Shown one piece after another: positions 2,703 through 37,699 of a stretch of DNA of 64,000 bases (position 1 is its first letter; each line of letters opens with the position of its first letter). Source of the DNA: Halorientalis salina (GTDB lineage Archaea > Halobacteriota > Halobacteria > Halobacteriales > Haloarculaceae); assembly GCF_005049285.1 (NCBI RefSeq), contig NZ_SOSC01000005.1, positions 124,001-188,000 on the forward strand, given 5' to 3'. The position numbers were made by a program, and so were the translations under genes. Below the pieces are notes generated by a model. It ran no database searches. It was not told the origin of the DNA and worked only from the letters and a program-made list of their open reading frames with translations.

Positions 2703-4472
2703 CTACGAGAGTTCGGCTTCCTCGGTGTCCATCTCGCCCTCGACACCCGCATCGTCGGTCGGCGGTTCGGCCTCGGGCAGTCTGATCGTCACCACACTGC
2801 CCCGGGGTTCGTTCTCGTCGATGGCGATGGTCCCGCCGGACTCGGTGACGATCCAGTTGATGATCCAGAGTCCGAGGCCGCTGACGTGGTCGAGTTGGGT
2901 TTCCCGGCCGCGCAACAGCACTTCGCGTTCGTCCTCGTGGATGCCGGGGCCGTTGTCGACGATCACGATCGCCACGTCGCCGCCGTCGGTCCGCCGGACC
3001 GACACCGACACCTCGATCAGCGGGTCCGGGTTGTCGTTGTGTTCGATGGCGTTTTCCAGCGCGTTCCGGATCGCCGAGTCGACGAGTTCGATCGCGGAGA
3101 CGTACATCGACTCGGGGAGGTCCGTCTCGATGGAGAGGTCAGGGCGTTCGTCCTCGATGTCGGCGACGACCTCGCGGACGGCCGCTGCCACGTCGACCGG
3201 ACAGGGATCGACGTTCTCCCCGTCGAGAGCCTGCTCTATCTCGCGGACCTTCGCACTCAGGTCCACCATCCCGGAGACGTGTTTCTGGATGGCCTGCACC
3301 CACTCGGCGTCCGGGTGGTTCTGCATCCCCAACTCGGCGTAGCCGAGGATGACGTTCGCCTCGTTGCGCAGGTCGTGACGGAGCGCTCGGTTGAGTACGT
3401 CCAATCGCTGTTCGCGCTGGCGGCGCTCGGTCACGTCCCGCAGGCTGACGAGCGTCCCCGTCAGGAGCCCGGCCCCGCGACGGAGCTGCGTGATCCGAAC
3501 GTCGTAGTGGCGAAGCGTCCCGTTCTGTCGCAGCGCGACCTCCGTCCGCGTGTCCCCCGTGTGCAACTCGTCGGTGGCCGGGGTCCCCAGCGCGTCGGCG
3601 AGATCCGGAACGACTGCGTCGAGCGGTTCCCCGAGGAGGTCAGCCTCCGTTTCACCGGTGAGCTGGCGAGCGCGTTCGTTGAAATCCGACACGTGGCCCC
3701 GGTCGTCGAGGACGAACACCGCCTCGATGAGGTTGTCCATGAGTTCGTCACGGGCGACCTCGCGTGCCACGGGGACGAGTTCGAGCAGTTTGTGGCGGTA
3801 GACGGCGACGAGGAACGTCACCGAGGTCACCGAGAAAGCGATCGGCGTCGGGTCGAACGGGACCGTCAGGAACCCGGACAGGTACACCGCGTTGCTCACC
3901 CACGGTGTGAATACCCCCACGAGAACCGCGACGGTCTGGCTCCGATAGACAGTGGTCGAGACCAGCAGCATCCGGACGAGAAGGTACGTCGCGACTACGA
4001 TCAGGAGATACGAGTAGGCGCTGTGAACCCAGAACCAGGGACCGTACTGGATGGAGAGCGAAGCGATGCCGCCGGTCTCAACGAGCGTCCGCCGGGTCCA
4101 CATCAACCCGTGGATCGAGTTCGTCCAGACCACGACGAGCGTGATCGCCGGCATCACGAGCAGCGGCACCGGCCCGTAGCGGGTCAGTCCCACGTCGTGG
4201 CTGGTGTATTCGACAGCGAAGTAGAGCAACGCGACCGGGAGGACGACGATACCGAAAAACATCGTGTTACCGAACAGGCGTAATCCGGACGGGTCGGTCC
4301 GGGCGACGCTGATCGCAGCCCCGCCCGCCCAGATGGCCGTGGCTACCGAGAGTACGGACAGCGGTACCGCACCCGGCGTGTCACGGTGCCGGGACGAGAG
4401 CGCGCCGACTGCCAACATCAGTACTGTCACAGCGGCAAACAGCCCCGTGAGCGGCGTCTGTTCCCATCCCAT
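2703..4472 (-). CDS. Sensor histidine kinase with 7TM input and PAS domain
   Basis: A 589-residue membrane kinase. Seven hydrophobic segments fill residues 1-225 (HisK_7TM type), a PAS domain covers about 243-350, and the HisKA helix contains NRALRHDLRN with phospho-acceptor His366. The HATPase domain shows the N box (N470 and N474), DNGPG at 506-510 and GLGL at 532-535, so it looks catalytically complete. The C-terminal 20 residues are acidic. The stop of the kinase is far from other genes, but its start lies 15 bp downstream of the HalX regulator on the same strand, so the two are probably one operon and a cognate pair. The stimulus is unknown. Confidence 0.93.
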   Translation of the reverse strand: MGWEQTPLTGLFAAVTVLMLAVGALSSRHRDTPGAVPLSVLSVATAIWAGGAAISVARTDPSGLRLFGNTMFFGIVVLPVALLYFAVEYTSHDVGLTRYGPVPLLVMPAITLVVVWTNSIHGLMWTRRTLVETGGIASLSIQYGPWFWVHSAYSYLLIVVATYLLVRMLLVSTTVYRSQTVAVLVGVFTPWVSNAVYLSGFLTVPFDPTPIAFSVTSVTFLVAVYRHKLLELVPVAREVARDELMDNLIEAVFVLDDRGHVSDFNERARQLTGETEADLLGEPLDAVVPDLADALGTPATDELHTGDTRTEVALRQNGTLRHYDVRITQLRRGAGLLTGTLVSLRDVTERRQREQRLDVLNRALRHDLRNEANVILGYAELGMQNHPDAEWVQAIQKHVSGMVDLSAKVREIEQALDGENVDPCPVDVAAAVREVVADIEDERPDLSIETDLPESMYVSAIELVDSAIRNALENAIEHNDNPDPLIEVSVSVRRTDGGDVAIVIVDNGPGIHEDEREVLLRGRETQLDHVSGLGLWIINWIVTESGGTIAIDENEPRGSVVTIRLPEAEPPTDDAGVEGEMDTEEAELS

Positions 4473-4487
4473 GTGAGCCAGCGACGA

Positions 4488-5075
4488 CTATGACGTCGAA
4501 TCGAGGGAGTCGAAGTCGGGTTCCGGCATCCGGAACAGCGCCCCGAACTCCCCCTCGTCCAGATCCATCACGGCGTCGTCGAGTTCCGCCTCTAATTCGT
4601 CGATCTGTTCGGTCAGCGCCTGGTACTCCTCGTTGGTTTCGAGCGCCGACTGGCTCTTCGAGGTCTGCAGTGCGGCCCGTTTCGAGACCAGCGAAAAGTA
4701 CTCCTGGAACGTGTCGTCGTACGACGTGTAGGTGAGCAGCCGATCCACCGTCTCGTAGAGGTCGTCCCGAGACACCGGCTTGACGACGTAATCGTCGAAC
4801 CCCATGTCCAGAATGTCGAAGTCGGGGTCGACCGCCGTTACCATCGCGACCCGACAGTCGTACCCTTCGTCCCGAATGTGTTCGAGGACCTCGTCGCCGG
4901 ACATCCCCGGCATCCGTCGGTCCAGCAGGACGGCATCGACATCCTCGTCCAGCGTCTCGACCGCTTCCGACCCGTCGTAGGCCGTCCGGACGTCGTATTC
5001 GTCCTGAAGGTGGGCCGCATACACGTCCGTGACCGCAGATTCGTCGTCGACGATGAGGATTGTTGTTTCGCCCAA
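4488..5075 (-). CDS. Response regulator with receiver and HalX domains
   Basis: A 195-residue regulator with no DNA-binding domain. The receiver (residues 1-125) has the acidic pair DDE after ILIV, the phospho-acceptor Asp in LLDRRMPG, and the Lys in VVKPVSRDD. The HalX domain, a helical output domain typical of haloarchaea, follows to about 180. The start is a TTG at 5075; no in-frame ATG or GTG precedes the conserved TILIVDD, so TTG is the best choice. It lies directly upstream of the 7TM kinase gene and next to a paralogous HalX regulator, giving a kinase with two candidate partners. Confidence 0.9.
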   Translation of the reverse strand: MGETTILIVDDESAVTDVYAAHLQDEYDVRTAYDGSEAVETLDEDVDAVLLDRRMPGMSGDEVLEHIRDEGYDCRVAMVTAVDPDFDILDMGFDDYVVKPVSRDDLYETVDRLLTYTSYDDTFQEYFSLVSKRAALQTSKSQSALETNEEYQALTEQIDELEAELDDAVMDLDEGEFGALFRMPEPDFDSLDSTS

Positions 5076-32190: not shown

Positions 32191-33171
32191 TCAATCGTCG
32201 GCTTCCCCGGCGTCCTGTCCGGCCACGATCTCGCCGAGGCCGTCGATGGGGCGATCCGGGTTGGCCGCGTCGAGGTCGTCGGGCGCGCCGAGTTGGACCG
32301 AGTCCTCGCTGACGTCGTCGCGGAGCCGCGTCCGGCCGCGGTGGACCGACACCTCGTCGTCGAGATGCAGCCCGATGGCCTCGATGAGCGCGTCTGCCTC
32401 CAGGGGTTGACCCACCTGCTGCAGTTCCTCCTCGGTGGCGTCGTCGGGCACGTTGAACGCCCGCTGCGTGATGATCGGCCCCTGGTCCAGGTCGGTCGTG
32501 ACGTAGTGGGCAGTCACGCCGGCGATGCGGACGCCCTCCTCGATGGCCTGCATGTACGCCTCCGCGCCGGGGAAGGCGGGGAGCAGAGAGGGGTGGACGT
32601 TGATGATCCGGCTCTCGTAGCGGAAGACCACGTCGGGGCTGAGGATGCGCATGTACCGGGCCAGCACCACGAGGTCGGCCTCGTATTCGGCGAGCAGTTC
32701 GAGCAACTGGTCCTCGTCGGGGGTCCCCTTCTCGTCGCCGATGTCGTGGAAGGGTACGTCGTACTTCTCGGCGAGCGGCTGGAGGTCGTCGTGGTTGCCG
32801 ATGACGACGCCGATGTCCGCGCCGAGGTCGCCGTTGGCCCAGGCCTCGAACAGCGCTTCGAGGCAGTGCGATTCCTTGGTGACGAGGACGGCGATGGACT
32901 GGGTCTCGCGGTCCGCCGGGAACCGCACCTGGATGTCGACGCCGAGGTCGTCGCCCAGATCGTCCAGGTCTTCCCGGAGTTTGGTCTCCGTACAGACCAT
33001 CTCCGTCGTGTCGACGTGCATCGTCATCCGGAAGACGCCCTCGCGGACGGCCTGGTCTAAGTCCTCGATGTTGATGCTCCGCTCGAACAGCAGACTGGTG
33101 ACGTTGGCGATCAGTCCGGTGTCGTCCTCCCCGACGACGGTAATCTCGGTCAGTTTGTGCTTGCGGGTCAC
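32191..33171 (-). CDS. purU: Formyltetrahydrofolate deformylase PurU
   Basis: A 326-residue enzyme that hydrolyses 10-formyl-THF to THF and formate, balancing one-carbon units and supplying formate for purine synthesis. The ACT domain (residues about 1-85, T-E-I-T-V-V-G-E-D-D-T-G-L-I) precedes the formyltransferase domain with V-L-A-R-Y-M-R-I-L-S near 175, I-I-N-V-H-P-S-L-L-P near 205 and D-Q-G-P-I-I near 245, where Asp is catalytic. The GTG at 33171 gives M-T-R-K-H-K; a GTG at 33180 is equally possible. The C-terminal tail after 290 is acidic. Convergent with purC. Confidence 0.93.
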   Translation of the reverse strand: MTRKHKLTEITVVGEDDTGLIANVTSLLFERSINIEDLDQAVREGVFRMTMHVDTTEMVCTETKLREDLDDLGDDLGVDIQVRFPADRETQSIAVLVTKESHCLEALFEAWANGDLGADIGVVIGNHDDLQPLAEKYDVPFHDIGDEKGTPDEDQLLELLAEYEADLVVLARYMRILSPDVVFRYESRIINVHPSLLPAFPGAEAYMQAIEEGVRIAGVTAHYVTTDLDQGPIITQRAFNVPDDATEEELQQVGQPLEADALIEAIGLHLDDEVSVHRGRTRLRDDVSEDSVQLGAPDDLDAANPDRPIDGLGEIVAGQDAGEADD

Positions 33172-33331
33172 GGCGACCACCGCCGACGCTGACGAGCGAG
33201 GGGTCTCATTCGTCAGCGTCTCTGCGACGGCCGGCGAAAAAAGTTGTTTTTTGCCGCCACTCGTCAGCCGGACGGCCGACGATCGGCCACAGACATTTGT
33301 ACGGTGGGGACGAACTCACGGCAGCTATCAA

Positions 33332-34222
33332 ATGACGGCGATATCCGTGCTGGTGGCCGACGCGGACGACGAGGCCCGCGGAGCCACCGCGTCGGCGCTC
33401 GAAGACGCGGGGATGGCGGTGAGCGAGGCTTCGGCGGTCGAGGCCGCCCGTTCGGAACTGGACAGCGACATCGACTGCCTGGTCACCGAGTACGCCTTCC
33501 CGGACGGGACCGGACTGGACCTGCTCTCGGAGTTGCGGTCGGAGAGCCCGGACACACCGTGTGTCCTCTTTACCGACGCCGAGCCGAGCGATATCGACAC
33601 GACGGCGTTCGAGGATCTGGTCGTCGAGTACCTGCGGAAAGACGGATCCGACGACCGGACGCGGCTCCGTACCCGGGTCGACGAGGTGACGACCCTGCGA
33701 ACACAGGTCGGGTACCCGTTACCGGACGACGAAGACGCCAGACTCGACGCGATCGCGGAGTACGACGTCGAGAACCTGGCCGTCGAGGAGACCCTCGACC
33801 GGCTGACCGAACTGGCCGCCAGACACTTCGGGACCGACAGGGCCTTCATCGGTCTGGTCCACGAACACGACGAGGAGTTCGTCTCCTGTCACGGCGGGAC
33901 GTTGGCCCCGCTCGCCCGGGAGAACACGATGTGTACACACGCCATCCTCGAACCGGAGATCATGGTCGTCGAGGACACCCAGGAGGACACGCGATTCGAA
34001 CACAACGACGCGCTCGACCGCCTGGACATCCGTTCGTACGTCGGCGCTCCGATGCGAACCGAGGACGGCCGTGCCATCGGGAGTTTCTGTCTGACCCACG
34101 ACGAGCCACGGACGTACTCGGAGGCCGACCGCGAGTACCTGCGACTGCTGGCCGACGAGGCGATGGAACAACTGCGGTTACGGCGTCGTCTGGACGACAC
34201 GGAGGAACACGAGTCACGATGA
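33332..34222 (+). CDS. Receiver-GAF sensory protein with Glu phosphoacceptor
   Basis: A 296-residue protein. A receiver domain occupies residues 3-115: A-D-A-D-D-E gives the acidic pair and Lys103 is present (Y-L-R-K-D-G), but where the phospho-acceptor Asp should be (C-L-V-T-E-Y-A-F-P-D-G-T-G) residue 53 is Glu. A GAF domain covers about 145-285 (F-G-T-D-R-A-F-I-G-L ... S-Y-V-G-A-P-M-R-T-E-D-G-R-A-I-G-S). Glu mimics a phosphorylated state in some receivers, so this one may be constitutively on or ligand-gated through GAF. It overlaps the next gene by ATGA, so they are coupled. Confidence 0.85.
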   Translation: MTAISVLVADADDEARGATASALEDAGMAVSEASAVEAARSELDSDIDCLVTEYAFPDGTGLDLLSELRSESPDTPCVLFTDAEPSDIDTTAFEDLVVEYLRKDGSDDRTRLRTRVDEVTTLRTQVGYPLPDDEDARLDAIAEYDVENLAVEETLDRLTELAARHFGTDRAFIGLVHEHDEEFVSCHGGTLAPLARENTMCTHAILEPEIMVVEDTQEDTRFEHNDALDRLDIRSYVGAPMRTEDGRAIGSFCLTHDEPRTYSEADREYLRLLADEAMEQLRLRRRLDDTEEHESR

Positions 34223-34878
34223 GCCAGAACACGCGCGGCCACTACGAGTTCGCCGACCTGCCGATAAATCCGGTCCGGCCGGGAACGAGTCTGCTCGTGG
34301 CCGGTCCGGCGCTCGGTGGGACACGGGAGTTAGCGCTGCGGATGCTGGCAGCCGGGGAGACACGCAACGAAGGGGCCCTGTTCATCGCCGCCGACGAGAG
34401 CGGCGAGGAACTGCTGGCCGACTACACGGCCCAGGGCGGCACGTTCGACCGCGGCCGGATGGCCGCCATCGAGTGTGGCGGCCCGCAGATCGAGAGCGAC
34501 GATCAGAACATCAGGTCCGTTCGGAGTCCGAGCGACCTCACCGGCATCGGTATCGAGTACTCATCGCTGTACGAGGGGCTCCACGGCGAGGGCATCGAAC
34601 GCGTCCGGACCGGCGTCTTCACCGTCTCGACGCTGCTGATGTACGCCGACGAGATCCAGCCGGTCTACCGCTTCCTGCACACGCTCACCGGCCGCGTCCG
34701 GTCGGCCGACGGCTTCGGCGTCTGCGTCGTCGACCCGACGACCCAGGACGACCGGACGCTCAGTTCCATCAGCCAGACGTTCGACGGCCGGGTCGACCTC
34801 CGGACGAGCGGCGACGGCGACGCGGAACTGCGGGTCCAGGGCGTCCGCGACCAGCCCGACGGCTGGCAGCGGCTGTAG
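34219..34878 (+). CDS. KaiC/RecA-like signalling protein with degenerate P-loop
   Basis: A 219-residue protein of the KaiC-like/RAD55 fold. The P-loop position reads VAGPALGGTRELAL with no G-K-T, while the Walker B-like strand G-F-G-V-C-V-V-D-P-T-T is kept near 180. It therefore may bind but probably does not hydrolyse ATP. It is the middle gene of a three-gene operon (receiver-GAF, KaiC-like, Bat HTH) overlapping its upstream neighbour by four bases and lying 1 bp before the next start. A similar protein is encoded alone at 11048. Confidence 0.8.
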   Translation: MSQNTRGHYEFADLPINPVRPGTSLLVAGPALGGTRELALRMLAAGETRNEGALFIAADESGEELLADYTAQGGTFDRGRMAAIECGGPQIESDDQNIRSVRSPSDLTGIGIEYSSLYEGLHGEGIERVRTGVFTVSTLLMYADEIQPVYRFLHTLTGRVRSADGFGVCVVDPTTQDDRTLSSISQTFDGRVDLRTSGDGDAELRVQGVRDQPDGWQRL

Positions 34879-34879
34879 G

Positions 34880-35539
34880 ATGCGCTACGCCACGTTCTCC
34901 ATCGTCGCCGAAACCGGCTTCACCGGCGTCGGCCGCACCATTTCCAGTCACCCCGATATCACACACGAAGGCATCCAGAACATCACGCTCCTCGGCGACG
35001 GCACCGTGCTGATGCTCACCCGGTTGCGCGGTGACCTCGAACGCGCCAGAACCATCCTCGAAGAGCGCGATGACATCCGCCACTGCGAGGTGTTCGGGAC
35101 CGACGAGGGGTACGCCTACATCCACGCCGAGGCGACCGATGTCGTCCGGCAGTTGCTCACCGTCGAGCGCGAACACGAGGTACTGATCTCGACGCCGATC
35201 GAGTTCGCCGAGTCCGAGGGGGCGGACGGCGAGGAGTTGCGCGTGACGCTGCTGGGCGACGACCGGACGCTTCAGCGCGTCGTCTCGAACGCGCCCGACG
35301 CCGTCGACATCCGACTCGAAGAGACCGGCGAGTACCAGCCGAACCTGGACGAGGTCGCGGCGCTGCTCACCGAGCGACAGCGGGAGATCCTCGGGACCGC
35401 GGTCGAGATGGGGTACTACGAGGTGCCACGGGGGACGACACAGCGCGAGGTCGCCGACGCCCTCGGCCTCGCTCCCGGGACGGTCACCGAACACCTCCAG
35501 AAGATCGAGTCGAAAGTGCTCACGCCGCTGGTGCAGTGA
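34880..35539 (+). CDS. Bat-type HTH transcriptional regulator
   Basis: A 219-residue protein with an N-terminal sensor-like region (residues 1-150) and a C-terminal HTH_10 (bacterioopsin-activator) domain: L-T-E-R-Q-R-E-I-L near 165, then G-Y-Y-E-V-P-R-G-T-T-Q-R-E-V-A near 180 and L-G-L-A-P-G-T-V-T-E-H-L. It follows the KaiC-like gene with only 1 bp between, so it is the output of the operon: receiver/GAF and the KaiC-like protein presumably control it. Targets are unknown. It ends 7 bp before ATACGG repeat copy D. Confidence 0.9.
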   Translation: MRYATFSIVAETGFTGVGRTISSHPDITHEGIQNITLLGDGTVLMLTRLRGDLERARTILEERDDIRHCEVFGTDEGYAYIHAEATDVVRQLLTVEREHEVLISTPIEFAESEGADGEELRVTLLGDDRTLQRVVSNAPDAVDIRLEETGEYQPNLDEVAALLTERQREILGTAVEMGYYEVPRGTTQREVADALGLAPGTVTEHLQKIESKVLTPLVQ

Positions 35540-35545
35540 CGGTTC

Positions 35546-35627
35546 ATACGGATTTCTGTAGCTGTTTCCCCCTACGACCGCCCGGCTGCAGGCGGTCGTT
35601 GCGGAAATGATCTACAGCAGTCCGTAT
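35546..35627. repeat. ATACGG palindromic element, copy D (82 bp)
   Basis: It lies between the Bat-type gene and the convergent R2lox gene. The last base (35627) is the first base of 'tca', the complement of the R2lox TGA stop, so the gene's final A is shared. It is the most divergent copy (GCTG region and inner stem vary) but keeps ATACGG, CTGTAG, GACCGCC and CCGTAT. Confidence 0.88.
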
Positions 35628-36583
35628 CAGTCCCCCGCCGCGGGTTGGTCGGCGTCCTCCAGTTTCACCAGCTCGTCGACGCCGGGAATCTCCGCGTCGG
35701 CGTCCGTGAGGATGTCGATGCGCCGGGAGAGCTTGTCGCTGGCGTACTCGACGAGCGGGACCGGGTCGGCCTCCTCGACCTGATTGGCCTGGACGGTCTC
35801 GGAGATCAGCGGGAGCAGCGACTGGAGCGTGTCCTGAACGACCGCCTCGTCGACGCCCCGCTCGTGGATGAGCTCGCGGACCTTCTGCATCCCGAAGCCG
35901 ACGTGACGCCCCTCGTCAGAACGGATGTAGTTGATCCCCTCGACGAGCCCCGGCAAGTGCGGGGATTCGAGGTCGTCCTCGTAGACGTCCGCTTCTCCCT
36001 CGCCGAACCGGGACGTGAAGCCGTAGTACCCGGTCTGGGCCAGCACGCTCTCGACGACGAGATGGTAGTGGCAGTACGCCTTCGCGCGGTTCTCGGGCGT
36101 GTCGTCGGTCAGGAGCCGTTCCATCGCAGCCTCGGTCCGGTCGAACAGGTCGACGTAACCCTCCGGGAACCACCGCTGGTCGGTCGGGGCGACCACCTCG
36201 TATCCCCGTTCCTCCGCGACTGGATTGACGACTTCACGCCAGTAGCGGTCGAAAAACTGGGTGTGTTTGGCCTCCTCGTAGATCTGGCTGGAGATGAACA
36301 TCTGGTCGTTGATGTCCTCGAGCACCAGCGCGAGCGGCATCAGGTCCTCCGTGACCGCCTCCTCGCCCGCGCCGAACAGCGCGATGGAGCCACGCATCGC
36401 GTCGTAGTTCTCCTCGCTCTCTTCTTCCTGTGCGAGCAGGTTCTCCCTGTCGCGTTCGAGCAGTTCCTGGGGCACGTCCTCGTAGGGGTCCCAGTGGCGA
36501 TAGACGGCGTTTTTGAAGTAGCCCTGTGCGAACGAGTCCGGGTCGAGTCGCATCTCGCGACTGGTGTCTTCTACCTGTGTCAT
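35627..36583 (-). CDS. R2-like ligand-binding oxidase (R2lox)
   Basis: A 318-residue di-metal protein of the ribonucleotide-reductase R2 fold. The R2lox marks are visible: A-G-E-E-A-V-T-E-D-L near residues 72-81 gives Glu74 and Val77, E-E-A-K-H at 103-107 gives Glu104 and His107, Tyr173 lies five residues before Glu178, and E-G-R-H at 224-227 gives the last pair. Val and Tyr are the residues that form the ether crosslink in the Mn/Fe R2lox. So it is probably an oxidase of unknown substrate, not the dNTP-making R2. The ATG at 36583 is chosen; the stop abuts repeat copy D. Confidence 0.88.
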   Translation of the reverse strand: MTQVEDTSREMRLDPDSFAQGYFKNAVYRHWDPYEDVPQELLERDRENLLAQEEESEENYDAMRGSIALFGAGEEAVTEDLMPLALVLEDINDQMFISSQIYEEAKHTQFFDRYWREVVNPVAEERGYEVVAPTDQRWFPEGYVDLFDRTEAAMERLLTDDTPENRAKAYCHYHLVVESVLAQTGYYGFTSRFGEGEADVYEDDLESPHLPGLVEGINYIRSDEGRHVGFGMQKVRELIHERGVDEAVVQDTLQSLLPLISETVQANQVEEADPVPLVEYASDKLSRRIDILTDADAEIPGVDELVKLEDADQPAAGD

Positions 36584-36714
36584 ACTACCACGTGGCACGG
36601 CCGTGTGCATACGACTACTGCCTAGGAAGCTAGGGGGTTTCTTATAGGCTCGTCGGCCGCCGCGGCGATGCCCAAGTCACAAGCGTTTTCGTCCGGGGCA
36701 ACCGCACTCCGGTA

Positions 36715-36966
36715 ATGACCGCCTTCACCGCGACCGTGACGGTTCGGCTGAAACACGGGGTGCTGGACCCCGAGGCCGAGACGACGCAGCGAGCGCTCGA
36801 ACGCCTGGGCTTCGAACTCGAGGACCTGCGTTCGGCCGACCAGTTCGAGGTCGACCTGGACGCGGCCGACGCCGATGCTGCGGCCGAGCGCGCCGACGAG
36901 ATGGCCGAGCGCCTGCTGGCAAACCCGACCATCCACGACTACGAGGTCACTGTCGAGGAACGATGA
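36715..36966 (+). CDS. purS: Phosphoribosylformylglycinamidine synthase subunit PurS
   Basis: An 83-residue small subunit of the PurSLQ complex that converts FGAR to FGAM. The beta-alpha-beta fold start T-A-T-V-T-V-R-L-K-H-G-V-L-D-P-E-A-E-T and the later L-A-N-P-T-I-H-D-Y-E-V match PurS. It lies 55 bp upstream of purQ on the same strand, an expected pair; purL is not in the window. Confidence 0.95.
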   Translation: MTAFTATVTVRLKHGVLDPEAETTQRALERLGFELEDLRSADQFEVDLDAADADAAAERADEMAERLLANPTIHDYEVTVEER

Positions 36967-37021: not shown

Positions 37022-37699
37022 GTGACAGTCGCCGTCATCCGCTTCGGCGGGTCGAACTGCGACCGCGACGCTGTGCAGGCGCTCGCCGAACTCGACGTCG
37101 ACGCCGAACTCGTCTGGCACGAGGACGGCCTCCCGGAGGACACCACCGGCATCATGCTCCCCGGCGGGTTCTCCTACGGTGACTACCTCCGGGCCGGCGC
37201 GATGGCCGCCCGCTCGCCGATCATGAACGAGGTCCGGGAGGCCGCCGAGAGCGGAACGCCCGTCCTCGGCGTCTGTAACGGCGCACAGATCGGCTCGGAA
37301 TCGGGGCTGACGCCCGGCGCGTTCACCACCAACGAGAGCGCGCGCTTCCAGTGTGAACACGTCCACCTGCGCGTCGAGAACGCCGACACGCCCTGGACCG
37401 ACGCCTACGAGGCGGGCGACGTGATCGAACTCCCAATCGCCCACGGCGAGGGACGCTTCGAGATCACCGACGAGCGCCTGGAAGAGTTGGAGTCCGAGGA
37501 TCGGGTCCTGTTCCGGTACTGTGACGCCGACGGGAACGTCTCGCCCGAGGCCAATCCCAACGGCTCGAAACACAGCGTCGCGGGCGTCCTCGGCGAGCGC
37601 GACTCCGTGGCCGTGTTGATGCCCCACCCCGAGCGTGCGGCGCTCCCGGACATCGGCCCGACCGACGGCCAGGGCGTCCTCAGCGGCTTCGCGAACTAG
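37022..37699 (+). CDS. purQ: FGAM synthase glutaminase subunit PurQ
   Basis: A 225-residue class I amidotransferase that hands ammonia to PurL. The nucleophile Cys is in G-V-C-N-G-A-Q near residue 86, with the H-P-E-R catalytic His-Glu near 205, after P-G-G-F-S-Y-G-D near 47. The start is GTG at 37022 (M-T-V-A-V-I-R-F-G-G-S-N), typical for PurQ, instead of the longer frame overlapping purS. It forms an operon with purS. Confidence 0.95.
   Translation: MTVAVIRFGGSNCDRDAVQALAELDVDAELVWHEDGLPEDTTGIMLPGGFSYGDYLRAGAMAARSPIMNEVREAAESGTPVLGVCNGAQIGSESGLTPGAFTTNESARFQCEHVHLRVENADTPWTDAYEAGDVIELPIAHGEGRFEITDERLEELESEDRVLFRYCDADGNVSPEANPNGSKHSVAGVLGERDSVAVLMPHPERAALPDIGPTDGQGVLSGFAN

Follow-up and report, generated by a model that had tools for sequence, protein, structure and literature searches.

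The window that we analysed is a 64,000-nucleotide stretch of the genome of Halorientalis salina. Within it lie three adjacent genes on the plus strand, which we call genes 1 to 3, with pur genes on either side:

32191-33180, minus strand: purU-like formyltetrahydrofolate hydrolase with ACT and formyl-transferase domains (PF13740, PF00551), divergent from gene 1
33181-33331, no strand: intergenic region between purU and gene 1, where, judging by position only, both promoters are expected
33332-34222, plus strand: gene 1, 296 amino acids, with a pseudo-receiver at about residues 5-118 (Glu53 at the acceptor site) and a GAF domain at about residues 150-278, as placed by Pfam, an alignment of homologues and an AlphaFold model
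34219-34878, plus strand: gene 2, 219 amino acids, DUF7504, a KaiC/RecA fold without the Lys and Ser/Thr of Walker A or the Asp of Walker B (Pfam and model)
34880-35539, plus strand: gene 3, 219 amino acids, HVO_0513_N and HTH_10 (a Bat-type HTH), a predicted transcription regulator and a lineage-specific addition
36715-36966, plus strand: purS, codirectional with and downstream of the trio
about 37025-37699, plus strand: purQ, also codirectional and downstream

An earlier note on this DNA had described three genes at 33332-35539 that overlap or nearly touch, and its coordinates are right: genes 1 and 2 share 4 bp (ATGA), and a 1-bp gap separates genes 2 and 3. A search for promoter patterns found nothing at this locus. 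Downstream, at 35627-36610 on the minus strand, is a gene for an R2-like ligand-binding oxidase (R2lox type), which is transcribed towards the operon in genomes of Halorientalis. It matches R2lox proteins in the PDB and an NCBIfam model (E = 1e-35, with a score under the curated cut-off), and it has no Pfam-A match at 1e-5. Each part of the operon is common by itself, as the genome has 13 DUF7504 genes, 8 HVO_0513_N genes and 36 matches to HTH_10. The same genome also has a second, diverged receiver-GAF/DUF7504 pair (locus L031, in G000:C2).

Both domains of gene 1 are clear. Pfam finds Response_reg (PF00072; E = 7.6e-13, 49 bits, cut-off 30.2) and GAF (PF01590; E = 7e-18, 65.8 bits, cut-off 22.4), and the AlphaFold model (pLDDT 89) has the alternating strand/helix pattern of receivers. 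The arrangement of the two domains is uncertain because the pTM is only 0.65. The GAF domain resembles that of 4zmu, a diguanylate cyclase (32% identity across some 160 residues, 1.4-1.7 A), so it is an ordinary sensor GAF of the bacterial type.

What sets the receiver apart is residue 53, which is Glu where phosphorylated receivers carry Asp. The earlier note had pointed this out, and had added that Asp in close homologues would make it a chance substitution. Among 104 non-redundant homologues, just 3 have Asp; the others have Glu (62), Ala (29), Gly (7), Ser (2) or Thr (1). The Asp residues sit isolated at tips of the tree and are apparent reversions (L010/L150, from Halosimplex pelagicum and close kin, and L008, from genome G132). 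So gene 1 does not belong with the phosphorylated response regulators of PF00072, which have Asp at the acceptor site; with the phospho-Asp absent, and its absence conserved, it belongs with the aspartate-less or pseudo-receivers. The note's emphasis on Glu was too narrow, given how common Ala and Gly are. As judged from the alignment, the conserved feature at this position is the loss of Asp, not Glu itself. Other receiver positions are retained: in 100 non-redundant pairs, Thr81 is kept in 97 and Asp10 in 91, which implies that the pseudo-receiver is a maintained fold rather than a decaying one.

Could Glu53 instead be a permanent phospho-mimic, so that the receiver is locked “on” and regulation comes through the GAF domain or the expression level? 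Glu is the commonest residue at the site, just as it is the commonest substitute in aspartate-less receivers generally (26%; PMC4395418), Thr81 is retained, and Glu53 usually occurs with Lys103 (40 of 59 Glu proteins, as compared to 2 of 29 with Ala53). But 39 of the 104 proteins have Ala, Gly, Ser or Thr, and Glu and Ala have interchanged at least 7 times on the gene 1 tree (a quick tree with many weak forks), including within Halorientalis. Because Ala is so frequent, a fixed phospho-mimic seems unlikely. Furthermore, the link between Glu53 and Lys103 is not significant if independent pairs on the tree are compared, as there are too few contrasts. For this reason we also dropped the idea that the two residues co-vary as a built-in salt bridge, despite the striking raw counts. 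Across the 100 non-redundant pairs, Glu53 is mostly found with Lys103, and Ala53 mostly with Arg or Ser at residue 103.

A more conventional proposal is an ordinary phosphorelay, in which phosphate goes to a different residue of the receiver, or in which the kinases that adjoin the pair in some genera use the receiver. There are indeed such kinases: in Halobacterium sp. (L172) the pair is followed by a PAS histidine kinase, and in Haloplanus (L174) by a receiver-PAS-kinase. Among the twelve loci examined, these two genera are the only ones with a kinase after the pair. On the other hand, the acceptor Asp is missing from 101 of 104 homologues, Arg replaces Lys103 in about half of the gene 1 proteins, and no kinase adjoins the pair in the window. 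With the acceptor Asp nearly absent, we consider a phosphorelay very improbable.

Gene 2 belongs to DUF7504 (PF24336; E = 7e-29, 101.9 bits, cut-off 27). Its AlphaFold model is confident (pLDDT 93.7, pTM 0.91), and the best matches in the PDB are KaiC, with E = 6e-10, and PH0284, an archaeal ATPase of the RecA type, with a TMq of 0.72; sequence profiles match KaiC as well. So gene 2 has the KaiC/RecA fold of the KaiC family ATPases, yet it has neither the Walker A motif GxxxxGK[ST] nor the Walker B Asp. The putative P-loop region reads GPALGGTREL, so the earlier note was correct that this KaiC-like protein is without G-K-T. This loss is conserved: of 101 gene 2 homologues that are paired with gene 1, none has GK[ST], none has the Walker A Lys, and 3 have the Walker B Asp. 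Among 60 DUF7504 genes without an adjoining receiver, 25 have the Walker A Lys and 44 have the Walker B Asp, and a few have the full GK[ST].

It could still be that gene 2 retains nucleotide binding in a pocket of an unusual kind, and that gene 1 controls it as a nucleotide sensor or a weak ATPase. The RecA/KaiC fold is well preserved, and the P-loop site is still glycine-rich in many members. But Walker A has lost its Lys and Ser/Thr and Walker B its Asp, and the type II partners have LLTGDD..AL at the site, which is unlike any P-loop. We consider nucleotide binding by gene 2 to be quite unlikely.

Gene 3 encodes HVO_0513_N (PF24278; E = 4e-41) followed by HTH_10 (PF04967; E = 9e-19, 67.5 bits, cut-off 23.1). 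The earlier note had called it Bat-type. This holds for the HTH_10, but the N-terminus is HVO_0513_N, and Pfam finds no match to the BAT domain (PF15915). In Bat-type regulators such as Halobacterium Bat and Haloferax HVO_1357, which share HTH_10 with gene 3, domains including REC, GAF, BAT and HTH_10 are found in one protein, while gene 3 is a separate gene without BAT (PMC7824242). Gene 3 also does not combine BAT with REC, PAS or GAF in a single chain. Our literature search found no paper for DUF7504 or for HVO_0513.

The same note treated the three genes as a unit, and this did not survive a survey of other genomes. Gene 3 is next to the pair only in the window species and in Halorientalis marina GDY88 (72% identity, with the same 1-bp spacing). 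It is missing from this position in six other Halorientalis genomes and at every other locus that we examined; where Halorientalis has the pair but not gene 3, gene 2 directly abuts the convergent gene for the R2-like oxidase. Gene 3 is a recent local addition to the pair, and we rule out the trio as a conserved unit.

The conserved unit is genes 1 and 2. Gene 1 has homologues in 34 of 87 genera of the order (88 of 293 genomes), and a DUF7504 gene adjoins it at 69 of 70 loci, of which 66 were found by a simple search and 3 more by a profile; the one locus without a DUF7504 neighbor is L028. A separate scan of named genomes, which has some genomes in common with the 70-locus set, found the pair adjacent in 51 of 52 cases, and the exception is at the end of a contig. 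After duplicates were removed, and with starts chosen by rule, gene 2 begins before the end of gene 1 in 94 of 100 pairs (an overlap of 4 bp in 67 and of 8 bp in 17). The two proteins have also diverged together: their sequence distances are correlated (Mantel r = 0.83, with 0 of 1,000 permutations as high), and the type I and type II gene 2 partners each track their own clade of gene 1. Chance, or a pair of decaying genes, is ruled out, as about a hundred non-redundant loci have kept the pairing, the overlap and the fold positions. The near-constant adjacency suggests that this is a widespread and unstudied signalling pair of the haloarchaea. The combination noticed in the window, of a receiver that probably cannot be phosphorylated and a KaiC-like protein that is probably not an ATPase, is real and is conserved across many haloarchaea.

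Could the pair be a local regulator of purine synthesis? If so, the GAF domain would read a purine nucleotide or a one-carbon metabolite, and the module would tune purU and purS-purQ. In the Haloarculaceae, the gene order is purC, purU (divergent), the pair, purS and purQ. Divergent purU and codirectional purS-purQ flank the pair in the window and in 17 other genomes (i.e., Halorientalis, Halosimplex, Haloarcula, Salinibaculum and metagenome-assembled genomes), although one side of this context is 2-3 kb off in Salinibaculum and Haloarcula rara. Also, GAF domains as a family include nucleotide binders. But outside the Haloarculaceae the pair is found elsewhere, as is the second pair of the window genome. 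In those genera, and for the type II pair, the neighbors vary (kinases, a universal stress protein, DUF7118 and others). Apart from the purine genes of the Haloarculaceae, clustering of neighbors gave no conserved third partner. And Halorientalis G098 has purC-purU-purS-purQ without the pair. The synteny may be simply inherited. The purine link may reflect function or inherited order, and we think it improbable that the pair is a purine regulator. The G098 locus (L264, G098:C1:2340000-2352000), which reads purC-purU-R2like-purS-purQ, is an empty site that should be useful for dating the gain or loss of the pair.

Receivers seem to have been paired with DUF7504 more than once. At seven loci, a REC-HalX gene is directly upstream of a DUF7504 gene (L138, at 3279-4534 on the minus strand of G000:C22:19000-27000, and L222, L224, L226, L230, L231 and L239). 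As with genes 1 and 2, the receiver gene comes first. In contrast to genes 1 and 2, which have a GAF domain and have lost both the receiver Asp and the P-loop Lys, these pairs have no GAF and keep both residues in 7 of 7 cases, with VVLLDRMMPG in the receiver and GPAMTGK[EDQ] in the DUF7504 protein. Going by these motifs, the REC-HalX pair is possibly the phosphorylatable counterpart of the pseudo-receiver pair: one clade of receiver/DUF7504 pairs looks phosphorylatable, with a P-loop that is partly kept, and the other has lost both features. With two clades, this is in effect one evolutionary contrast and not a statistical series. A different sort of pair is found at L135 (3855-5962 on the minus strand of G000:C11:26000-34000), where a KaiC-like protein of 516 amino acids with an intact GGPGTGKST is encoded by a gene that shares 4 bp with a short DUF7504 gene, i.e., an active and a degenerate KaiC gene side by side.

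How might genes 1 and 2 work? Our preferred reading is that they form a conserved two-protein module of the Halobacteria in which a GAF-gated pseudo-receiver binds an inactive KaiC-like partner, with neither phosphotransfer nor ATP hydrolysis. We give this about an even chance of being right. The GAF domain would sense a small molecule or a redox state, and a change in its conformation would be passed to the attached receiver, which could not be phosphorylated and would act as a docking surface for proteins. That surface would bind gene 2, a KaiC-fold protein that would no longer hydrolyse ATP. The signal would run from gene 1 to gene 2, and gene 2 would serve as an adaptor that hands it on either to further regulators or to KaiC-like ATPases that are still active. 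In the window species and in H. marina, the output may be coupled to gene 3, the HTH_10 transcription regulator; in other genera, it may go through the other genes that follow the pair, which twice include a histidine kinase. Ligand gating by the GAF domain, which the earlier note had proposed, is plausible on the domain content because the GAF is the sole sensory domain left. Two considerations weigh against the module: linkage can mean a shared function without contact, and the variable downstream genes mean that the output is not fixed.

The earlier note knew of no described system of exactly this make-up. That is fair for the combination, but both types of parts already have names (PMC4395418, PMC12632262 and, for iKaiC, PMC5847659). 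Aspartate-less receivers are a named class, and the Halobacteria are among the archaeal classes richest in them (PMC4395418). Like gene 1, they have the receiver fold without the phospho-Asp, most often with Glu instead, and the Lys is often Arg. The well-studied examples are mostly bacterial transcription regulators, whereas gene 1 is fused only to GAF and is tied to a KaiC-like gene. Of archaeal receivers, 10-15% are without the phospho-Asp, and the authors of a review from 2025 were aware of no work on the function of any archaeal pseudo-receiver (PMC12632262). An archaeal census catalogues REC-GAF proteins as well as inactivated KaiC domains, or iKaiC, a name for which it cites Makarova et al. 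2017 mBio; the listed fusions are iKaiC-REC, REC-DUF835 and HalOD1-iKaiC (PMC5847659). Like gene 2, these are KaiC folds in archaeal signalling proteins that have lost the ATPase residues, sometimes fused to REC or HalOD1. They are listed as fusions, whereas gene 2 is a separate gene whose translation overlaps that of a REC-GAF gene. In the literature that we searched, we found no report of a pseudo-receiver paired with an inactive KaiC, though the supplements of Makarova et al. 2017 (on KaiC hubs) may list such a pair. The pair gives an archaeal pseudo-receiver a specific candidate partner, linked to it genetically, in dozens of genomes, among them species of Haloarcula and Haloferax, so the function of such a receiver becomes simple to test experimentally. 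It also supplies a candidate input for an inactivated KaiC-like domain, of which there are many.

The nearest functional parallel is with KaiA and CikA, whose pseudo-receivers work with the KaiC clock by binding. CikA also carries a GAF domain. The likeness that we see is at the level of domains. The order of receiver and GAF differs from that in gene 1, and so does the lineage. The KaiC of cyanobacteria is active as both an ATPase and a kinase, while gene 2 is predicted to be inactive, and the locus has no KaiA-like or KaiB-like gene. In cyanobacteria, KaiA stimulates KaiC and CikA binds KaiB (PMC12632262). It is conceivable, if doubtful, that our pair is the haloarchaeal counterpart of KaiA/CikA and KaiC, in which a GAF-controlled pseudo-receiver would steer a KaiC fold by binding alone, in a module that would have given up both phosphotransfer and ATP hydrolysis and would have outputs that differ by genus.
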